Below are positions 12,121 through 46,908 of a DNA stretch of 64,000 nt, piece by piece. Each line of letters opens with the position of its first letter. Position 1 is the stretch's first letter. Made by a program: the position numbers and the translations under genes. The stretch covers positions 1,364,001-1,428,000 of the forward strand of contig NC_014364.1 of assembly GCF_000143985.1 (NCBI RefSeq), written 5' to 3'. The notes below the pieces were generated by a model. The model saw only the letters and a program-made list of their open reading frames with translations, had not been told where the DNA came from and did not search any database. The stretch is from Sediminispirochaeta smaragdinae DSM 11293 (GTDB lineage: Bacteria > Spirochaetota > Spirochaetia > DSM-16054 > Sediminispirochaetaceae).

Positions 12121-12141
12121 GTTCCTTAACGAATCTTAAGA
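12121..12141 (-). terminator. Possible short terminator at the nrnA stop
   Basis: On the minus strand TTCTTAA-GATTCG-TTAAGGAA overlaps the stop codon and is followed by CTTTCATAATTT. The stem is AT-rich and only 7 bp with a wobble pair, so this is a weak call. Confidence 0.3.
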
Positions 12142-13116
12142 ATACATTGTTTCAATAACTGATAAAAGCTTGCGTTCCAGCTGATTCCTTTGCTCTCTAC
12201 TGCGAAAACTTGCCGCATGCTTGTGGCCTCCTCCGCCGAACTGCTGGGCGACTGCACCGACATCCAGCACAAGATTCGATCGAAGTCCGACAGAGATTTC
12301 CCCGGGCTCCTCATCGCGGAAGAATAGAACGGCATCAACCCCGGCAACGGCCTGAAGTTGTCCGTATATGGTGTCGGAATCTCTTTCACCGAAGCCGAGC
12401 TCCTTTTCATCGTCGACGGTAAGGTAGCTTGTGAGTACCTTGCCCCCGACACGAGGCTGAGCCCTGTCAAGCACTCTTCCTATCAACTTTTTCGAAACAA
12501 GGCTTCTGTTCCCGTACATCGTTTGATATGCATCCTTGGGGACGGCTCCATAGCGGCAGAGTCTGGACGCGACGCTGAGGATTTCCTCGCCGCCATGTGT
12601 TACATGTCTGAAGAAACCGGTATCGGTTGCAAGGCCGAAAAGCAGCAGCTGGGCTTCCTCGCTAGTGGGGATTCCTCCGAGCCCTTCAATCAGAAGAAGT
12701 GTCAAATAGGTTACCGAAGGAGCTCCCGGGTCGATGCAGGATGCCGCACTAGCTACCGGATCACCACCGGAGGCATGGTGATCAAGGATCAAGGTCGGCA
12801 ATCCCTCGATCTCTTTTGCAAGATAGCCGACCCTGTCGATACTTGAACAATCAACGATCACGGCTGCCCGTTTCGAACCTTTTTCCATCGGTGGCACATG
12901 ATCGGCAACCCTATCTGCAAGGTCGTTGATTTCTGCCCTTCGAAAAGGGCCCGATGAGAGGGCATTGGCCCGTTTCCCCGATCTATTCAAAAATGATGCC
13001 AAAGCAATCTGACTTCCGAGACAATCCCCATCCGGATCTTCATGACCGATAATCAGAAATTCATCAAAACTTTGAAAAACCAAGAGGAAAGGGTCCGGTA
13101 TGGATCCTATTGGCAT
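12136..13116 (-). CDS. DHH-family phosphoesterase, nanoRNase/pAp phosphatase (NrnA-like)
   Basis: 326-residue cytosolic enzyme of the bifunctional oligoribonuclease/pAp phosphatase family. It has the metal-binding motifs GHEDPDGDCLGSQIA (about 23-37), VDCSSIDRVG and ILDHHASGG (the DHH signature), plus a C-terminal DHHA1 domain with FGGGGHKHAASFR. ATG 13116 is preceded by AAGGAG. It likely degrades 2-4-nt RNA and possibly dinucleotides from cyclic-dinucleotide turnover, which is worth noting because a c-di-AMP synthase-like gene lies at 45111-46445. Confidence 0.85.
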   Translation of the reverse strand: MPIGSIPDPFLLVFQSFDEFLIIGHEDPDGDCLGSQIALASFLNRSGKRANALSSGPFRRAEINDLADRVADHVPPMEKGSKRAAVIVDCSSIDRVGYLAKEIEGLPTLILDHHASGGDPVASAASCIDPGAPSVTYLTLLLIEGLGGIPTSEEAQLLLFGLATDTGFFRHVTHGGEEILSVASRLCRYGAVPKDAYQTMYGNRSLVSKKLIGRVLDRAQPRVGGKVLTSYLTVDDEKELGFGERDSDTIYGQLQAVAGVDAVLFFRDEEPGEISVGLRSNLVLDVGAVAQQFGGGGHKHAASFRSREQRNQLERKLLSVIETMYS

Positions 13117-37440: not shown

Positions 37441-38592
37441 GTGGAGAGGATCGATACATCGTCAGTCATTGATCTCCCCGTGTCATTGATTCTTACCGAT
37501 GACGGGCTCTTTTTTTTCAGTAAGCATCGCTCCGCTCCCCATCAGAGAGACAAAGGTGGAATGTGCCTCGAGTCCTTCCCCGCATCGACGCTTCAGCGGA
37601 TGATACTTGCCGGGTATGTATCTTCGGTAGAGGTTTCGAGAAGCGATTTCACCTCAAAACGTCAGGAATTGATGGATGTCTCGAAGTTAATCATGTATGG
37701 TACCTTGTACCGCCATTTCCCCGATGCGCTCTGGAAATTGGTTGCTACCAGCGATCTCATCCTTCATTACAATCGATCACATCCGAAAACTCCCTTTACC
37801 CGGGAACATCTTGACCGGGGAGGGGCCATTGATGCTTCAGGACAAGGAACTGCGGCTCCTGCTTTGGCTCTGCTGGAAGAACTCTCTGTTTCTGCGGCAG
37901 ATGAGGCACTGAAGGAGCGCTCCTCCTTTTCCGAACAGGAAAAAGAGATGGCGAGGACAATCGGCCGTAGGTATCTGTCACACATTACCGCGCCCTTCTG
38001 GCTGCTGCTGTCTGCTTCCCAGAGGGCCGTAGCCGATCCGATGCTCGATACCTTAAGAGATTTGGTGGCCTCCTATATCGGAAAGGCTTCCATTTCCGAT
38101 TATTTAGCCCTCCTTCTCATGGAGCTTGGTGTCTATGCGGAGAAAAAGCTGGTAGGGCGGGCTACCAAGGAGCTTTTTCACGGGAATCTTGATGCCGATG
38201 CGGTCATGCGAAACGATGAGGCCAGAAGCAGGGTTCTTGCGGAAATGGAGCGCATGGGGTTCCGGGTGACGGTGGTCTGGAAGATTATGGGACGTACGGC
38301 TTCTATCGGCACCGACAATCGTCTGGAAGTAATCCTTTACGACCGGGGCAGCGATTCCGAAACCCTCAAGAATCAGATAGAGACCAAAAAGGGAATGGAT
38401 ACCAAAAATCACTCCCTTTTGGACTACTACGAGAAAATCGTCTCTTCAGCCAGCGGAGAGGAATTGGGACTTTTTTATCTTGGGTATATCGAAGAGGCGT
38501 GTCAAAAGCAGGATATTCGATTTGAGAGTCACGTTAGTAGAATCGAGAAAAACGATTTGACCATTGTCAGGTTAGCCTTCCACTTCAGGTGA
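37441..38592 (+). CDS. Protein of unknown function in a partner-switch operon, GTG start
   Basis: 383 residues, mostly helical, no signal peptide or membrane segment, not recognised. A short beta-rich start (DLPVSLILTDDGLFFFSKH) is followed by acidic helical regions (LALLEELSVSAADEALKERS; EKEMARTIGRRYLSH) and a C-terminal YEKIVSSASGEELGLFYLGYIEE. GTG 37441 has GGAG 6 nt upstream, 12 bp after the HATPase stop, so it is cotranscribed with the STAS/HATPase pair. It could be the output or scaffold of that switch. Its 3' end overlaps the convergent phosphatase gene by 8 bp. Confidence 0.75.
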   Translation: MERIDTSSVIDLPVSLILTDDGLFFFSKHRSAPHQRDKGGMCLESFPASTLQRMILAGYVSSVEVSRSDFTSKRQELMDVSKLIMYGTLYRHFPDALWKLVATSDLILHYNRSHPKTPFTREHLDRGGAIDASGQGTAAPALALLEELSVSAADEALKERSSFSEQEKEMARTIGRRYLSHITAPFWLLLSASQRAVADPMLDTLRDLVASYIGKASISDYLALLLMELGVYAEKKLVGRATKELFHGNLDADAVMRNDEARSRVLAEMERMGFRVTVVWKIMGRTASIGTDNRLEVILYDRGSDSETLKNQIETKKGMDTKNHSLLDYYEKIVSSASGEELGLFYLGYIEEACQKQDIRFESHVSRIEKNDLTIVRLAFHFR

Positions 38593-40723
38593 TTTCCGCT
38601 ATCTTCATGATCAGAAAGGTTTGATCGTCGTGTTGGCTTGTACCTTGTGCGAAGCGATCGATATCTTCCTTTATCCGCTCGGCAATTTTCGAGGCGGAAA
38701 GCTGTGCCGATGAACGCACGACGGACTTAAGCGCTTCCAGACCATACTCCCGACTTTCCTTGCTTCTCGTTTCGGTCACACCGTCGGTATAGAAGATCAG
38801 GATATCTCCGGGAATGGTCTGGAACTGACGCTGCTTATAATGTTCGCCGACCTCTATACCTATGGGAAGTCCCGGAGTGTCCATCTCGATAAAGACTTCG
38901 GTCCCTTTTCTGTAGATCAGCAGAGGCAGATGAGCAGCGTTGGAAAAGTAGATTCGCTTTTCCATCTCGTCATATACAAACATGCCCATGGTGGCAAAAT
39001 GATCGACACCAATTTTCCCGGTGATACCTCTGTTGAGAAATGTCAGAATCTGGGCGGGTTTTCTGTCTCCCGATGCGGTCAGCCTAAGGATCGTTCGAAT
39101 CATAACCATGAGCATGGCCGCAGGCACACCTTTCCCGACCACATCGCAGATGACCACTGCCGTTTTCCCCTTTTCGATGGGAAAGATATCGTAGTAATCA
39201 CCACTGACACCCTTTGCAGCCTTTGAATAGGTGGCTATGCTTGTCCCCTTTGGTTCCGAGATCCGTTTGGGAAGAAGATCCTTCTGTATCCTTGCCGCAA
39301 TTTCAATCTCGCGCTGGATCTCTCTTCGCTCTATCAACTCGGTGTAATTGTAGATGTTGTCGATGGTGAGGGCCGCATAATCGGCGAAGGTTCTCATATG
39401 GGTGAAATCAAGGTCACTGAAATGACTTGTTTTTCCTCTTCTCGCCACGGCAATGGCCCCCAGAATTCTACCGGGAAGTGAAAGCGGTACGATGATAAGG
39501 CTTGATACATAGAGTGGATCGTCATCCTCAAGAAGCGGAAAGGTCGTTCCCTCAAGCGCTTGTGAACAGTTTCTGAAAAAACGGGGTTCGGCGGCGGCAA
39601 TACATTCACCGATGATAGTTTCGCCGAGGCCGAAGGGTTTATTCCGTATATATTCATCCACTTCCTGTTTTTGCCTCGGAAGCCGCTCGGGAAAGGGATA
39701 GGGAGGGGGAAACATCCCGATAATATCGGAGACATAGATTGATTTACTTGCCTCATCAACCAGAAAGAGTGCCCCTGCATCTGCCTCGGTATTTTCGACG
39801 GCCGATTCGACAACCAAGGCAAGAACTGCCTCGGGATCCGGGTCCTGGGCCTGAAGACTGCCGATCCTAAACATAAAATCGAGTACCGAATCGAGCTTCT
39901 CCTTCAACTGATCCTTGAGAGCGTTGTAGTCTTTTGAAAGCTCTTCAAACTCGTCCCGCGAACGGATGGTGAGCTCGTTGGAAAAATCGCCCCGGGAGAT
40001 AACGCTCATGGCCTCTCCGACCAGTTTAATTCGTTTTACCATCTGAGTGGAAAAACGGCTGGTAAGGATGAGCGTTATCAAAAGACTGCATGCGATGATG
40101 GCTATTGCTATCCGTGTTCCTGCCGTGATAATGGTGTTGGCCCGGAGATTTGTCTCCCCTATCAGCTTATCCATTCTTGCTTTGAAGGTTTCGGTATTAT
40201 CCATGATCAGCAGCTGATAGTTTTTTAGGGTCTGATAGGCGCCGAGAAAGGGGTGAGGCTGTCCTTCCTGGCTGATGACGAGGAAGGTCTGAAAGAGGCC
40301 CCTGTCGCCGACAAGTCGGTCCATCCGCTGATCGATCATCCAATCCATATGATCGAGTGCCGGCTGATAGTACCAGGTCGAAAGTTGGTTCCACCAGCCT
40401 ACCGTTTGCTGCAGCTCCGAGGTCTGCCGTTTGCTGAGGAATCGGGCTCCTCGTGCCGAGACAAAATCATTCAGCTCTTGCTCGAACTTATCGATGCCGA
40501 ATTCGATTCTCGCTTTTTCCACGGTGATTCTGCTGTTCGTGGTCATGAGAGAATCCATGCGAACCGAAAGCTGCTCAAGGCTCGAGATCGATCGTTCGGA
40601 GAGCATTTCAAAATCCTTGAGCGCTATGATGGTGCTGGTAAAAAAAATCACCACCGAGAGGGCGATAAGCACACCCAACACTAAAAGGGCCTCGATGATG
40701 GACAGCTTCGTACGAATCTTCAT
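38585..40723 (-). CDS. Membrane-bound HAMP-GAF-SpoIIE serine phosphatase
   Basis: 712 residues. TM1 (about 9-35) and TM2 (about 195-220) enclose a helical extracytoplasmic sensor of about 160 residues. A HAMP domain (KRIKLVGEAMSVISRGDFSNEL), a GAF domain (about 290-455, including GLGETIIGECIAAAEPRFF) and a PP2C domain follow. The PP2C domain contains AKGVSGDYYDIF, VICDVVGKGVPAAML, FYTDGVTETR and HDDQTFLI. It would link an external or redox stimulus to dephosphorylation of the STAS protein encoded convergently. ATG 40723 was chosen before TM1; ATG 40735 is an alternative. Confidence 0.9.
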   Translation of the reverse strand: MKIRTKLSIIEALLVLGVLIALSVVIFFTSTIIALKDFEMLSERSISSLEQLSVRMDSLMTTNSRITVEKARIEFGIDKFEQELNDFVSARGARFLSKRQTSELQQTVGWWNQLSTWYYQPALDHMDWMIDQRMDRLVGDRGLFQTFLVISQEGQPHPFLGAYQTLKNYQLLIMDNTETFKARMDKLIGETNLRANTIITAGTRIAIAIIACSLLITLILTSRFSTQMVKRIKLVGEAMSVISRGDFSNELTIRSRDEFEELSKDYNALKDQLKEKLDSVLDFMFRIGSLQAQDPDPEAVLALVVESAVENTEADAGALFLVDEASKSIYVSDIIGMFPPPYPFPERLPRQKQEVDEYIRNKPFGLGETIIGECIAAAEPRFFRNCSQALEGTTFPLLEDDDPLYVSSLIIVPLSLPGRILGAIAVARRGKTSHFSDLDFTHMRTFADYAALTIDNIYNYTELIERREIQREIEIAARIQKDLLPKRISEPKGTSIATYSKAAKGVSGDYYDIFPIEKGKTAVVICDVVGKGVPAAMLMVMIRTILRLTASGDRKPAQILTFLNRGITGKIGVDHFATMGMFVYDEMEKRIYFSNAAHLPLLIYRKGTEVFIEMDTPGLPIGIEVGEHYKQRQFQTIPGDILIFYTDGVTETRSKESREYGLEALKSVVRSSAQLSASKIAERIKEDIDRFAQGTSQHDDQTFLIMKIAEIT

Positions 40724-40831
40724 GTCGCCGATCATACCATGAGGGAGGCAAATCGTCAAAACTCTTCGGAATTCAAGATGGAATTCAACGCCGCTTGTAA
40801 TTTTTCCAAAGAAAGGTACACTGGATAAAGC

Positions 40832-42073
40832 ATGAAAATACTGCATACTTCAGATTGGCACCTCGGTAAGCGCCTGGGCCGTTTCAGCCGCATGGAAGAG
40901 CAGGCCGATATTCTGGATGAGATCTGTTCCATTGTTGATGAGCAAAATCCCGACCTTATTATGCTCTCAGGGGATCTTTTCGATGGTTTCAACCCTTCGG
41001 CCGAGGCAATTGAGCTGCTTTACCGGACGCTCCACCGCATGTCCGGCGGCGGAAAAAGAGTGATCATCGCCATTGCCGGTAATCATGATTCGCCGGATCG
41101 AATCGAATCGCCCGATCCCCTTGCAAGGATCAGCGGCATTTTTTTCCTCGGTTATCCCGAGACTCAAATCAAAACGTGCCATCTGGAGAGCGGCTGGGTG
41201 GTGGAGAGCCCCGAAGCGGGGCTGCTTCGCCTTCGAAAAGAGGGGAGGGCGGAGCTGCGAATCATCGCCACCCCCTATGCCGGGGAGGTTCGACTTCGCA
41301 AGGCCATCGATCCGACACGGGGAGAGGAACAGGTCAGGGCCATTCTCCGTGATCACTGGAAGAATCTTGCCGACCGTTTTTTCGATGATGGGGGCATTAA
41401 TCTGATGGCGGCACATCTTTTTTCCGCCGAAGCCGAGAGCCTGCCCTTCGACGAGCTTGAGGAAGATGGAGAACGTCCCATTCTCCATCCCGGAGGCCTT
41501 GAGCTGATTCCCTTTTCCGCCTTCCCCGCAGAGGCCCAATATATTGCCCTAGGGCATCTTCACCGACCGATGCTTACGCAGTATGGCAAGAGCACCATCT
41601 GCTACAGCGGCAGCCCCTTGGCCTATTCCCTTTCCGAAAGTGGTCAGCAGAAGCAGGTTGTTCTTGTCGATCTCGAGCCTGGGAAGAGGGCAAAATGCGA
41701 AGTGGTGCCCCTTTCTCGCGGTAGAGCCCTGTGCCGGGGGCGTTTCAAGACGCTTGAAAGGGCCCTTGCCTGGCTTGGCGAACACCAGGAGGCTTACGTA
41801 GAAGTGACGATGGAGGTTGATCACTATCTCGAGACAGGAGTGCGGGATGCCATCCATGATGCCCATCCTCGGGTCCTTGCGGTTGTTCCCGAACTGCTGG
41901 AGGGCCCGGACCTTTCAGTTTCCAGACGGGAAGAAATAGATATCGATGCCCCTTTGGAACGACTTTTCACCGAATACTTTCGCGGCCGAAACAACGGTGC
42001 CGATCCGGAACCCTATCTGCTGGAGCTGCTCGCCGAGGCCGTTTCCGCAGGAAACGAGGAGCCAGGAGTATGA
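40832..42073 (+). CDS. sbcD: Exonuclease SbcCD subunit D (Mre11 family)
   Basis: 413-residue Mn-dependent nuclease subunit. Phosphoesterase motifs are LHTSDWHLGKRLG, MLSGDLFDG, IAGNHDSP, AAHLFSAE and LGHLHRP, followed by the C-terminal capping region. With SbcC it cleaves hairpins and protein-blocked DNA ends. Divergent from the HAMP-GAF phosphatase. The ribosome site before ATG 40832 is weak (GGAT). It overlaps sbcC by ATGA. Confidence 0.95.
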   Translation: MKILHTSDWHLGKRLGRFSRMEEQADILDEICSIVDEQNPDLIMLSGDLFDGFNPSAEAIELLYRTLHRMSGGGKRVIIAIAGNHDSPDRIESPDPLARISGIFFLGYPETQIKTCHLESGWVVESPEAGLLRLRKEGRAELRIIATPYAGEVRLRKAIDPTRGEEQVRAILRDHWKNLADRFFDDGGINLMAAHLFSAEAESLPFDELEEDGERPILHPGGLELIPFSAFPAEAQYIALGHLHRPMLTQYGKSTICYSGSPLAYSLSESGQQKQVVLVDLEPGKRAKCEVVPLSRGRALCRGRFKTLERALAWLGEHQEAYVEVTMEVDHYLETGVRDAIHDAHPRVLAVVPELLEGPDLSVSRREEIDIDAPLERLFTEYFRGRNNGADPEPYLLELLAEAVSAGNEEPGV

Positions 42074-45000
42074 TACCGCTGCAGTTGACGTTGAAAGGCT
42101 TTTATTCCTATCTCGAGGAGACGGTGATCGATTTCAGGCCCCTGACCGCCGCAGGTCTCTTCGGTATTTTCGGGCAGGTCGGCAGCGGCAAGAGTTCCAT
42201 TGTCGACGCAATCGGCTTTGCCCTCTACGACCAGAGCGAGCGCCTTAATCGTCAGGAGAAGCGCCACTACATGCACCTCTCCGCTCGCGAGATGATCGTT
42301 GATTTTACCTTCCTTCACGGGGATGGAGAGTACCGTTTTCTCGTCTCCGGAAAGCGTTCCGGTAAGGGGGACAAGGCCCCGAACTACAACCGCTCCGCCT
42401 ATCGGAGGGAGGGAGAGGCATGGATTCCCTTTGCCGATGATCGGGATCGGGGGGCAGGGAATGCTGCGGAGCTGCTGGGCCTCAGCTATGAAAATTTTCG
42501 GCGTGCGGTGGTTATCCCCCAAGGCTCCTTTCAGGAGTTTCTCCGGCTTTCGGGCAAGGACCGGACGGAGATGCTTCAGGAGCTTTTTCAGTTGGATCGT
42601 TTCGACCTCTACCGGCCCGTGACGAACCTGCTTTCTGATACTCGTCGCGATTGTGAACGCATCGAAGAGCGTAAGCGGCTGATCGTCGAGGAGGAGGGCG
42701 AGAGTTCCTCTGAACTCGAAGGGCATGTATCTTTGCTCACACAAGAGCTTGATCGGTTGACGGGGGAACTCAAAGATCTGCGTGCCTTCACCTCCCGCCA
42801 GGAGCAGGCTCGTCAACGGGCCGAGCGGCTTACACAGCTGAAAGAACGCCTTGCCGATCTCGAACTCGCCGAACCCGAGTGGAAAAAGCGACGCCTTGGC
42901 CTAGAACGCTTTGATGCGATCACCCGGGAAGTCCTGCCCCGAAGGACGGAGATGCTTGAGATTCGCAAGCGGATGGAAACCCTTGATGCCCGTCGTCTGG
43001 AAAATGAGGCTGCTCTTCGTAAGAGCAGGGAGGAACGGCTCGGCTGCGAAGAACGCTACCGGGAGCTTGAAGCTGCAATGGAGAATCGCAGGAAAAATGC
43101 TGATGAGGCCGAAGCCCTGGAGCGGATTCTGACATTCAGGCGGTCGGGTGAGAAGCTTCGGAAGGCCGAAAAGGCGTTTGGAGACTTGCAAGAACGGGAA
43201 CGTCTTCTTATCGGACGTAGGCAGGAGCTTCTCACGCGGCGGGGAGAGGTTCAAAAGGAACTGCAGGACATCGAAAAACTGGCGGAAGAAGAGGGCGAAC
43301 TTTCCCTCCTCGGACAGTGGTATGCCAAAGCCGACGCTTTACAAGAGGAGACCAAACGTCTCTCTTTTGAACTTGAAGAGAATGAACGGAAGGCCGAAGA
43401 GCTTCTCCAGCTGCCGCGATCTTCGGCGTCAGAAATTCCCGGACTCTCCTGCTCCGTAGATGATGCACCTGAGACAATCCTCGAGGCTCTGAGGCGCCGG
43501 GAACGGGAGATTGAAGATCGTTTAACGACGATTGGTATTCGCAGTCATCGAGGCTTGCTTGTCGATGGGACCCCTTGTCCGCTCTGCGGTTCTCTTCATC
43601 ATCCCGTTGTCGAAAAAAAGGAGGCGTTTGAAGCCGAAGCAGAGGGGGAAGCCGAAGAGCTCCAATCACTGCTTCCTATGGTTCGAAAGGCTGCTATCGA
43701 ACGTGGTAACGCCCTTTCCAAGGCCGAGGTACATATGGACCGGGTACGGCAACTGACTAGGTCCCTGGAAGATGTACAGGAGCGAACAAGAGAGCATCTC
43801 GAAACCTTTTGCTGGGACCGTTTCGATCCTGAGGAGCGGGAGCCCTGGAAGCGGGCGACACAAGAGGCCGAAGCCCGATCGCGGCAAGGCCGCCTGCTGC
43901 GATTAAACTTGGATGGCATCAGCGCCGATCTTGAAGGCCTTGAGCCCAAACTCGCCGCGGCAAGCGATGAGAAATCCGCTCTCCTTGAGAAGATTGCCGG
44001 GGAAAAGGGAAGGAGTACGCTCCTTCGGGAATCGATCCCGGACGAACTTTTTACCATATGGGGCGATACGGACGGCGGGGAACTCGCAGCCCGTCGTGAG
44101 AAACTCAGAGCCGATGCCGAGGGGTTGGAGATCCGTTTTGCCCAGGCACGCCGGGAAATGGAAACAAGTGCCCTGCGAGTAAGTACCTTGACCGGTAGCC
44201 TCGAGGAGCTGGGACGGAGTCTTGCGGAGGAAGGGGCACGTTTTGACCGGCTGCGAGAAGGTTTTCTGCCGATGCTTTCCGACCATGGTTTCGACTCCGA
44301 AGATGCCCTCGATTCCTTTATACAAAGGTATGAAAAAGCCGATGAGGAGCGGGAGAAGATAGCAACCTTCGAAAGGGAGCTCCATGCCACGCGGGAGCAG
44401 CTTCGAGAGGCAATCGATGTGGCCGGTAGCGAGGAGTTCAACGAAGCGGGCTACCGAGAGGCTCTGTTAAGCTGTGAAGAGAAAGAGGGGCGGGAAAAAG
44501 AGCTTTGGGCCGAGCTTGCCACGGCCAGGGAACGGCATAGCAGGAGCCTTCGCCAGGAGGAAGAGCTCCGTCGATTGGAAAAAGAGGAGCGGGTGCTTTC
44601 CCGTCGCCGTGAAGCCCTTTCCCTTCTTCAGAATATGATGAAGGGGAACGGCTTCGTTCGTTTCGTTTCGACTCGCTACCTGCGGGAACTCTGTGCCAGA
44701 GCAAATAGACGGTTCCTTCCTTTGACAGGCAAAAGCCTCGCTCTCGAGGTCGACGAGAACGGGGACTTTCAGGTGCGAGATCTCCTTAACGGGGGTAAAC
44801 TTCGGTCCATCAAGACACTTTCCGGCGGGCAGACCTTTCAGGCCGCCTTTTCCCTTGCCATTTCTCTTTCCGAAAGCGTGAGAAGGGGAGGGGAGAGCTT
44901 CTTTTTTATCGATGAGGGCTTTGGCTCGCTGGATAACGAGGCCCTCGGCCAGATCTTCGAAACGCTCAAAACCCTTCGGCGAGAGAGGAGTATCGTCGGG

Positions 45001-45114
45001 ATCATCAGTCATGTCGAGGCCCTGCAGGAAGAGGTCGATACCTCTCTGATCGTACGGCGGGATCCTGTGCGCGGAAGTGTGATAAGCTTTAATGAAGGAG
45101 GGCGTGGATCATGA
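42070..45114 (+). CDS. sbcC: Exonuclease SbcCD subunit C (Rad50-like SMC ATPase)
   Basis: 1014 residues. The N-terminal ATPase half has FGQVGSGKSSIVDAI (Walker A, about 35-49) and the Q-loop PQGSFQEFLRLSG. Two long Glu/Arg-rich coiled coils flank a zinc hook CPLC near residue 503. The C-terminal half has signature KTLSGGQTFQAAFSLAISLSE and Walker B FFFIDEGFGSLD. Coupled by 4-bp overlaps to sbcD and to the following EIIA-cyclase gene. Confidence 0.96.
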   Translation: MIPLQLTLKGFYSYLEETVIDFRPLTAAGLFGIFGQVGSGKSSIVDAIGFALYDQSERLNRQEKRHYMHLSAREMIVDFTFLHGDGEYRFLVSGKRSGKGDKAPNYNRSAYRREGEAWIPFADDRDRGAGNAAELLGLSYENFRRAVVIPQGSFQEFLRLSGKDRTEMLQELFQLDRFDLYRPVTNLLSDTRRDCERIEERKRLIVEEEGESSSELEGHVSLLTQELDRLTGELKDLRAFTSRQEQARQRAERLTQLKERLADLELAEPEWKKRRLGLERFDAITREVLPRRTEMLEIRKRMETLDARRLENEAALRKSREERLGCEERYRELEAAMENRRKNADEAEALERILTFRRSGEKLRKAEKAFGDLQERERLLIGRRQELLTRRGEVQKELQDIEKLAEEEGELSLLGQWYAKADALQEETKRLSFELEENERKAEELLQLPRSSASEIPGLSCSVDDAPETILEALRRREREIEDRLTTIGIRSHRGLLVDGTPCPLCGSLHHPVVEKKEAFEAEAEGEAEELQSLLPMVRKAAIERGNALSKAEVHMDRVRQLTRSLEDVQERTREHLETFCWDRFDPEEREPWKRATQEAEARSRQGRLLRLNLDGISADLEGLEPKLAAASDEKSALLEKIAGEKGRSTLLRESIPDELFTIWGDTDGGELAARREKLRADAEGLEIRFAQARREMETSALRVSTLTGSLEELGRSLAEEGARFDRLREGFLPMLSDHGFDSEDALDSFIQRYEKADEEREKIATFERELHATREQLREAIDVAGSEEFNEAGYREALLSCEEKEGREKELWAELATARERHSRSLRQEEELRRLEKEERVLSRRREALSLLQNMMKGNGFVRFVSTRYLRELCARANRRFLPLTGKSLALEVDENGDFQVRDLLNGGKLRSIKTLSGGQTFQAAFSLAISLSESVRRGGESFFFIDEGFGSLDNEALGQIFETLKTLRRERSIVGIISHVEALQEEVDTSLIVRRDPVRGSVISFNEGGRGS

Positions 45115-46445
45115 CTTCATTTGGCAGGATGCTGGATACCGACCGTATCCTTATCATCAAAGCCGATAGGCTTATAGACAAGAAAGAATTGTTGTCCCTT
45201 CTGTGTGAGCGGATCAGCAAGGCTTGGGACATCGTAGGATCTGAGCAACTTCTTACCCTGGTCCATAAGCGGGAAGAAACCTTTTCTACCCGCCTCGGAC
45301 CGATGCTGGCTGTTCCCCATGCTGTTATCCCGGGTGGAGAGGAGAACCGGATGGCTGCGGCCGTGATTCCCAATGGTGTGGAATGGGATTCCGATACCGA
45401 TCACCCTGTCCGTTTGGTTTTTCTTCTCGTAGGGGGGCAAGAAGATCATCTGAAATTGCTCAGCGAATTGGCGGCAGCGCTCCAGGACGAAACCTTTTTG
45501 CTTCGATTGACCACTGCCACCTCTCCCAAGGCCTTTCTTTCCGTTTTTCGAAGGAGGGATGAGGGCCCCGTTCATCCCTTCGTCCATCGCCACCGTGATC
45601 TTTCCGCGGCCATCTTTGAACAGGCCCTTCGCCTGCGGGATGCTGTCGATGGTGCCAGAATCATTCTCCATGCCGACGCCCTGGGAGACGGCGAATATAT
45701 TGACGAGTTGATTCGCGGAAAAAATGTCCTTGTTGTAAGCGGCGGGGAGACCCTTTTCGATGCATCATTCCTTGAGCGCTATAGGCCGATAATCATGCCC
45801 TTCAGGGGGATCAGACGTTCGATCCATGTCCAGTTTATTCTCCTCTATCTCCTTGGGCGAGGGGTAATAGGTGAAGACGATCTCATTGTGAATGCCTATG
45901 GAAAGCCGGGATCGGGTTTTCTCGATTCAATCAGATTAAGCCACCTGAAGCGTGAACTTAATCTTCCCTTTTCCTCTCAATCGGGAGCCTTCCCCACAGA
46001 TCTCGAGCTTTCCACCTTCGCACGTGTCCTGCAACTCGCTTCCCAGCTTGCCGCCGAAGGAAGAGAGGGAAAGCCGGTGGGCACCCTCTTCGTTGTGGGA
46101 GATCAGGCCGGTGTCTATCCCTATACCAGGCAGATGATTGTTAATCCCTTTCACGGCTATGCCGATAGCGATAAAAACATCCTCGATCCGAGCATAGAGG
46201 AGACGGTGAAGGAGTATGCCAAGATCGACGGGGCCTTTATCATACGGGGCGACGGCACCATTCTTTCTGCCGGAACCTTTCTGTCGGGTCAGCCGACGGC
46301 CGACGAAATGCAGTCCGGCCTAGGTGCACGGCACGCTGCAGCTCAGGGCATTACCGCGGTCAGCAAGGCACTGGCGATAGCAATCTCGGAATCGACGAGA
46401 AAGGTGACGGTCTTCCAATCGGGGAGACGAGTGATGGAGCTATAG
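45111..46445 (+). CDS. PTS EIIA domain fused to a DisA_N-type diadenylate cyclase domain
   Basis: 444 residues with a clear composite architecture. Residues about 10-150 are a PTS EIIA type-2 domain with the phosphorylatable His70 in MLAVPHAVIPG and VFLLVGGQEDHLKLLSELA. About 165-285 resemble the pyruvate-kinase C-terminal-like domain of archaeal DacZ enzymes. About 320-444 form a DAC domain with GTLFVVGDQAG, IDGAFIIRGDG (DGA motif, 373-375) and LGARHAAAQGIT (407-409 RHA where RHR is usual). It is predicted to make c-di-AMP from ATP, perhaps gated by EIIA phosphorylation. ATG overlaps the sbcC stop; AAGGAGG lies 9 nt upstream. The RHR change leaves activity open. Confidence 0.85.
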   Translation: MTSFGRMLDTDRILIIKADRLIDKKELLSLLCERISKAWDIVGSEQLLTLVHKREETFSTRLGPMLAVPHAVIPGGEENRMAAAVIPNGVEWDSDTDHPVRLVFLLVGGQEDHLKLLSELAAALQDETFLLRLTTATSPKAFLSVFRRRDEGPVHPFVHRHRDLSAAIFEQALRLRDAVDGARIILHADALGDGEYIDELIRGKNVLVVSGGETLFDASFLERYRPIIMPFRGIRRSIHVQFILLYLLGRGVIGEDDLIVNAYGKPGSGFLDSIRLSHLKRELNLPFSSQSGAFPTDLELSTFARVLQLASQLAAEGREGKPVGTLFVVGDQAGVYPYTRQMIVNPFHGYADSDKNILDPSIEETVKEYAKIDGAFIIRGDGTILSAGTFLSGQPTADEMQSGLGARHAAAQGITAVSKALAIAISESTRKVTVFQSGRRVMEL

Positions 46446-46464: not shown

Positions 46465-46908
46465 TCAATTGTCCCAGATATACTGTTCCATCTTTGCAAT
46501 GAGGAAGTCTTTTTCGGTGATGACCGCCTTAACGATATCACCGATGGAGATGATGCCGATCAGTGCGTTGTTTTCCATTACCGGAAGATGACGGAATCGT
46601 TTTTTCGTCATCAGGGCCATGCAGGTCTCGACCCCCGTCTCCGGTTTTATGGCGACAACCTCCGTGGTCATCAACTCCTTTACGGGAAGGTCACGGGGAC
46701 ACTCCTGGCTTCCAATGGCTCCGATGGTTTTTCTTGCATAGTCGCGTTCGGAAAAAATACCGATCATCTTTTGCTGATCGTCAAGGACGACAACCGCACC
46801 AACATTTTTCTCACTCATCAGACTCAGCGCCTGAAATACCGTAGTCTCGGGCCTCACCGACCAGATATCGGCTCCCTTTTGCGCCAGAAGGTCTTTGATT
46901 GTTTCCAT
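46465..46908 (-). CDS. CBS-pair protein
   Basis: 147 residues, two CBS domains and nothing else: VFQALSLMSEKNVGAVVVLDD, then VKELMTTEVVAIKPETGVET and FRHLPVMENNALIGIISIGDIVK. Such proteins bind adenosine nucleotides and modulate partner enzymes. AAGGAGG lies 9 nt before ATG 46908. It ends the dnaE-yggT-recG-rsmD cluster, convergent with the EIIA-cyclase gene 19 bp away. Confidence 0.9.
   Translation of the reverse strand: METIKDLLAQKGADIWSVRPETTVFQALSLMSEKNVGAVVVLDDQQKMIGIFSERDYARKTIGAIGSQECPRDLPVKELMTTEVVAIKPETGVETCMALMTKKRFRHLPVMENNALIGIISIGDIVKAVITEKDFLIAKMEQYIWDN

Follow-up and report, generated by a model that had tools for sequence, protein, structure and literature searches.

A diadenylate cyclase fused to a PTS EIIA domain in Sediminispirochaeta smaragdinae and in several bacterial phyla: a candidate phosphorelay input to c-di-AMP synthesis

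The window analyzed here, a stretch of 64,000 nucleotides from Sediminispirochaeta smaragdinae, codes at positions 45111 to 46445 of the plus strand for a protein of 444 residues, the reading frame originally predicted, in which a PTS EIIA domain, a DacZ_P domain, and a diadenylate cyclase (DAC) domain share one chain. This architecture is real and widespread, and we find it rather likely that the protein belongs with the DacZ/CdaZ diadenylate cyclases, is soluble, and serves the PTS as an output, with phosphorylation of its EIIA-Ntr-like domain by EI/HPr as the gate. For most diadenylate cyclases, it is an open question which signal controls the level of c-di-AMP; the fusion names a candidate, PEP/PTS phosphorylation, together with the residue to mutate (His70). 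Through such a protein, the fuel state of the cell may be turned into a c-di-AMP signal, and two systems that act separately on K+ and osmotic balance would be joined. The gene is under purifying selection, with a dN/dS of 0.09 against the congeneric genome G003, and its host is described, for strain SEBR 4228 under the former name Spirochaeta smaragdinae, as an obligate halophile (PMC3035371).

The N-terminal domain (residues 19 to 146; 45165 to 45548, plus strand) is a type 2 EIIA domain that is nearest to EIIA-Ntr/PtsN. Pfam PTS_EIIA_2 (PF00359) matches it with an E value of 4e-22 and 79.2 bits against a cut-off of 27, and PtsN structures are the top matches both by profile and by fold (TMt up to 0.86). 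In the family alignment, the predicted phospho-acceptor is His70 (45318 to 45320, plus strand), within an AVPHA motif, so the phospho-His claimed from the sequence is indeed in place. This position is His in 84 family rows and Gln in 2, and the site is absent in one Wallbacteria member (L157). The two members with Gln (L132 and L140) both belong to the Fibrobacterota, and all three proteins are natural tests of the need for phosphorylation. H113, the other His of the EIIA site, is Tyr, Gln, or Asn in about one quarter of members, so lineages may not all transfer phosphate in the same way.

The middle domain (residues 158 to 288; 45582 to 45974, plus strand), which had been likened to that of archaeal DacZ, is PK_C-like, as three lines of evidence agree. 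The Pfam family DacZ_P matches the window protein weakly (E value of 0.005) and is found in 53 of 70 family members, with a best E value of 9e-21, while PK_C itself is found in 13 of the 70 (best, 2.9e-6). A profile built from 70 full-length relatives matches the C-terminal domain of Escherichia coli pyruvate kinase (E value of 3e-4). Last, the model of the middle domain alone is confident (pLDDT of 92, pTM of 0.88), and all 50 PDB matches listed by Foldseek for it are pyruvate kinases, with TM scores of 0.53 to 0.71. The same PK_C-like view of archaeal DacZ was taken in a study of Haloferax volcanii, which points out that the version of this fold in pyruvate kinase binds fructose-1,6-bisphosphate (PMC6741144). 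As is typical of DacZ/CdaZ proteins, the domain stands directly ahead of the DAC domain. The model of the full-length protein reaches a pTM of only 0.62, so the arrangement of the domains relative to each other is not predicted.

The fusion was followed in 94 relatives, most of them with all three domains, from the Spirochaetota, Fibrobacterota, Verrucomicrobiota, Kiritimatiellota, Planctomycetota, and Wallbacteria; some of these rows are one genome entered twice by two routes. An alignment-based scan of GTDB genomes gave at least 345 relatives, of which 80, from the same six phyla, were kept, and a scan of the same GTDB genome contigs with the single protein found no relative. Within the spirochaete phylum, 15 of 393 genomes, counting S. 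smaragdinae itself and G003, match the C-terminal two thirds of the protein strongly. When 10 relatives were examined with Pfam, 8, all from other families, had both the EIIA and DAC domains and 2 (L067 and L072) had no EIIA; a further DacZ-type relative, L071, also has none. The presence or absence of EIIA on the tree needs five changes, a figure that includes several rows scored as having no EIIA merely because contig ends cut them, and a long archaeal branch of unsure placement. Phage records contained matches to the EIIA region only, all in unannotated records. Two loci have unusual layouts. The relative at L063 (8186 to 10018, genome G256) has 610 residues and an insert of about 170, rich in Pro, Ser, and Ala, between EIIA and DAC, and at L127 (1922 to 3466) the gene upstream of the relative codes for a glycosyltransferase 2 domain fused to another type 2 EIIA domain.

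The idea that the PTS feeds the EIIA domain proved plausible on inspection of the genomes. S. smaragdinae codes for HPr and for four EI genes, one of which has an N-terminal GAF domain as in EI-Ntr (PtsP-like). Among the 17 spirochaete genomes searched, EI is present in 17 and HPr in 16, but PTS_EIIC (counted as PF02378 alone among the EIIC families) in only 7, so the PTS relay is often regulatory in these genomes. On the output side, the S. smaragdinae genome has three matches to TrkA_C (RCK_C), a domain type to which c-di-AMP binds in other bacteria. Apart from the fusion, two stand-alone EIIA genes of S. smaragdinae (L185, 433 to 924, and L186, 349 to 816; near 4,060,500 and 4,311,400 of its genome, G000) adjoin cation/proton antiporter genes (MnhE and Na_H_Exchanger). 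This placement suggests that EIIA proteins control cation antiport in the species and agrees with the action of EIIA-Ntr on K+ handling elsewhere (PMC9239096).

In the mechanism that we favor, PEP would phosphorylate EI, EI would phosphorylate HPr, and HPr would pass the phosphate on to His70 of the EIIA-Ntr-like domain at the N terminus. Whether His70 is phosphorylated would then alter either the meeting of two DAC domains or their binding of ATP and in this way set the rate of c-di-AMP synthesis, while the PK_C-like domain may add a metabolite input, as the equivalent region of pyruvate kinase holds the fructose-1,6-bisphosphate site. The c-di-AMP produced would act on the transport of ions and osmolytes, for example, through proteins with RCK_C domains. 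Our guess, a weak one, is that the cyclase is active when His70 carries no phosphate. The Fibrobacterota member L132, which has Gln in place of the phospho-His, comes from a genome that shows no other DAC (one assembly of unstated completeness), and this hints that, provided the enzyme is needed there, it is unlikely to be completely off when unphosphorylated. Taken as a whole, a phosphorelay-to-cyclic dinucleotide switch has in our estimate about an even chance of being correct. In such a switch, c-di-AMP, and with it K+ and turgor, would be set in several phyla by the PEP/PTS state as read at phospho-His70, perhaps together with a sugar phosphate held by the PK_C-like domain, and the fusion would be the sole c-di-AMP synthase in Opitutae and Fibrobacterota.

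The best-surviving alternative, although we regard it as unlikely, is that the EIIA domain serves other proteins as a docking site or phosphodonor, or that it senses by binding and not by phosphorylation, with the PK_C-like domain as the main control on the cyclase. EIIA-Ntr is known to act by protein contact, as in Sinorhizobium, where unphosphorylated PtsN1 binds KdpD and favors growth at low K+ (PMC9239096), and the members with Gln at His70 or without the site, as well as the DacZ-type relatives without any EIIA, would fit such a role. However, pure docking would not require that His70 be retained in almost all members across several phyla, and the near-universal EI and HPr of the spirochaete genomes searched likewise count against this reading.

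The C-terminal domain (residues 314 to 439; 46050 to 46427, plus strand) is a DAC domain by Pfam (PF02457; E value of 1.2e-22, 80.2 bits against a cut-off of 27) and by fold, with CdaA and DisA structures as matches. The best NCBIfam model for the C-terminal half (residues 301 to 444) is that of haloarchaeal DacZ (E value of 4.5e-29), but the equivalog cut-off of NF041371 (DacZ, Halobacteria) is not reached (101.6 versus 430 bits), which makes the protein a DacZ-like cyclase outside the haloarchaeal equivalog. The DGA catalytic motif read from the sequence is confirmed at residues 373 to 375 (46227 to 46235, plus strand), with D373 and G374 conserved in 95 of 95 rows and A375 in 94. A GARH motif follows at residues 405 to 408 (46323 to 46334, plus strand), in which R407 and H408 are invariant in all 94 rows that have a residue there, and the family alignment places an SES motif, the counterpart of (V/I)SEE, at residues 426 to 428 (46386 to 46394, plus strand).

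The original prediction had raised the doubt that RHA in place of RHR might affect activity, and this doubt is largely answered. Residue 409, at the place of the last Arg, is Ala in the window protein, and Ala or Thr is usual there (87 of 94 rows; 67 Ala, 20 Thr, 4 Gln, 2 Arg, and 1 Tyr). In a small DAC alignment of six rows, for which the archaeal DacZ and CdaA rows were used and the L071 row was left out, a haloarchaeal DacZ carries RHH and SES, so neither RHA nor SES marks an enzyme as dead. For Listeria CdaA, the Arg and His of RHR are listed among the active-site residues and the last Arg is not; the last Glu of SEE, also listed, is said in the same work to contact ATP (PMC7288161), and this place is Ser in the window protein.

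The distribution of DAC genes also bears on activity, as several lineages show no synthase of any other kind. The fusion was the one kind of DAC found in 5 of 5 Opitutae genomes and 6 of 6 Fibrobacterota genomes (completeness not given, although all of them agree and Ereboglobus sp. PH5-10 is an isolate) and also in G401, G416, G418, and G011, the last of which is 94% complete. The loci led to 29 genomes, of which 12 have a single DAC, of the EIIA type, and 2 more have two long DAC frames, none of them CdaA sized; among these are all of the Opitutae and Fibrobacterota genomes tested. If the EIIA-DAC protein were dead, the Opitutae, the Fibrobacterota, and these four genomes would be left with no cyclase. 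Most spirochaetes with the fusion also carry CdaA, so in most of them the EIIA-DAC protein is not the only source of c-di-AMP; S. smaragdinae itself has a canonical CdaA with RHR and SEE (G000:C1, near 1,764,900). As the only kind of DAC found in the Opitutae and Fibrobacterota genomes, the EIIA-DAC protein very probably is active and makes c-di-AMP.

It is improbable, in our judgment, that in the CdaA-bearing genomes the DAC domain lacks activity or yields a different product, the protein being there a nucleotide-binding regulator of the PTS. SES for SEE, the loss of the last Arg of RHR, and the canonical CdaA of S. smaragdinae would allow it, but the same SES and non-Arg residues are also seen in members whose genome has no other DAC and in a haloarchaeal DacZ, H. 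volcanii has c-di-AMP in vivo with DacZ as its one putative DAC (PMC6741144), and the DAC domain alone shows a low dN/dS of 0.11 between the two Sediminispirochaeta species.

The gene neighborhood had suggested a different input. Upstream of the cyclase gene, and only in this genus, are sbcD (40832 to 42073, plus strand; NCBIfam TIGR00619, 154 bits, over the cut-off) and sbcC (42070 to 45114, plus strand; Pfam AAA_23 and SbcC_Walker_B). As had been noticed, the ATG of the cyclase gene overlaps the TGA of sbcC in an ATGA at 45111 to 45114, and an overlap of like kind links sbcD and sbcC at 42070 to 42073. A strong Shine-Dalgarno sequence, AAGGAGG (45095 to 45101, plus strand), lies inside the end of sbcC, 9 nucleotides 5' of the cyclase ATG, so translation of the cyclase is possible alone and need not rest on coupling. 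Scans for promoters and terminators gave signals near the shuffle level.

From this arrangement, a DNA damage input to c-di-AMP had been proposed, and neither this input nor conservation of the sbcD-sbcC-EIIA-DAC order was borne out by the relatives. The congeneric G003 keeps the sbcC-cyclase order with the same 4-nucleotide overlap and is the only genome to share the linkage. Neither sbcC nor sbcD was found in the fetched flank of any of the 94 loci outside the genus, 81 of which have at least 1.5 kb upstream, and the linkage to DNA damage was rejected on these loci; absence of sbcDC beside close homologues is what the original prediction had named as a refutation. The partial locus of G001 (L073), from the other genus of the family, ends upstream at a contig end and so cannot tell on sbcDC. 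The genes immediately upstream of the relatives code for an amylase, a fumarase, an aldo/keto reductase, a lipoyl ligase, AcrB, an acyltransferase, a glutamate dehydrogenase, NuoA, and others, and 20 upstream genes examined with Pfam were metabolic, transport, regulatory, or unknown, with no theme. No conserved neighbor of any kind was found at the loci compared, as shared neighbors are confined to small sets of related loci; the large neighbor clusters look like open reading frames antisense to the cyclase gene (45 and 36 loci) or like ABC transporter ATPases (22 loci). The predicted absence of a DNA-binding domain does hold: Pfam finds none in the window protein, and the C-terminal HhH of DisA is absent, as the DAC domain ends at residue 439 of 444.

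It is thus very improbable that SbcCD, by co-expression or by contact with the cyclase, links c-di-AMP to DNA breaks in place of the DNA-binding domain of DisA, as the overlap in the two congeneric species and the priA- and mutM-like genes upstream of the relative in G133 (by reading of the translation, a single case with no theme) stand against unrelated upstream genes, a protein with no DNA-binding domain, and loci without sbcDC even where sbcC is present elsewhere in the genome (G377, G353, G296, G256, and G002, the last without a detected EIIA-DAC). The tempting tie to DNA break repair is a local gene arrangement only, and the operon in Sediminispirochaeta is at most a means of co-expression.

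Three other genes of the window deserve mention. A HAMP-GAF-SpoIIE gene (PP2C-type phosphatase; 38585 to 40846, minus strand) is divergent from sbcD, and the first ATG of its reading frame overlaps the sbcD start; its true start is probably further inside the frame. Convergent with the cyclase gene, and kept in G003, is a gene for a protein with two CBS domains (46465 to 46908, minus strand) that weakly resembles the c-di-AMP-binding protein CbpB (NCBIfam, 39.9 bits against a cut-off of 125). About 32 kb from the cyclase gene, a DHH-DHHA1 protein of 326 residues (12136 to 13116, minus strand) is a candidate phosphodiesterase of the NrnA/DhhP type for pApA or c-di-AMP.

The description of the system as little described stands for experiments and less so for the domains. 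The middle domain had been catalogued before, as Pfam has named families DacZ_A, DacZ_P, and DacZ_T. The 2023 survey by Galperin ("All DACs in a row") reportedly sorts DACs into families by their N-terminal domains, and it probably lists the EIIA-DAC fusion. The survey is among the works cited in PMC12974146. A search of an open literature library for diadenylate cyclase with EIIA or phosphotransferase system returned no title or abstract studying the fusion. A DacZ-type cyclase with a PTS receiver is therefore known at most as a domain architecture, and what we put forward is a candidate control mechanism.

Among known systems, the closest is DacZ/CdaZ of the euryarchaea (Pfam DacZ_N/A/P/T plus DAC), which shares the C-terminal DAC adjoining a PK_C-like domain, the GLGxRH and SES motifs, and the lack of transmembrane or DNA-binding domains but does not have the extra N-terminal PTS EIIA of the window protein. 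EIIA-Ntr (PtsN) of the nitrogen PTS shares the EIIA fold and phospho-His motif, is the best structural and profile match, and also signals without sugar transport; PtsN is a separate partner-binding protein, whereas the EIIA domain described here is covalently fused to its presumed target enzyme. With DisA, the likeness is limited to the DAC catalytic domain, as the window protein has no DNA-binding domain, carries its DAC at the C terminus with DacZ-type motifs, and is not known to be octameric. The CdaA-CdaR system also shares the DAC catalytic domain only, since CdaA has N-terminal membrane helices, RHR and SEE motifs, a YbbR-like gene after it, and no PTS or PK_C-like domain.
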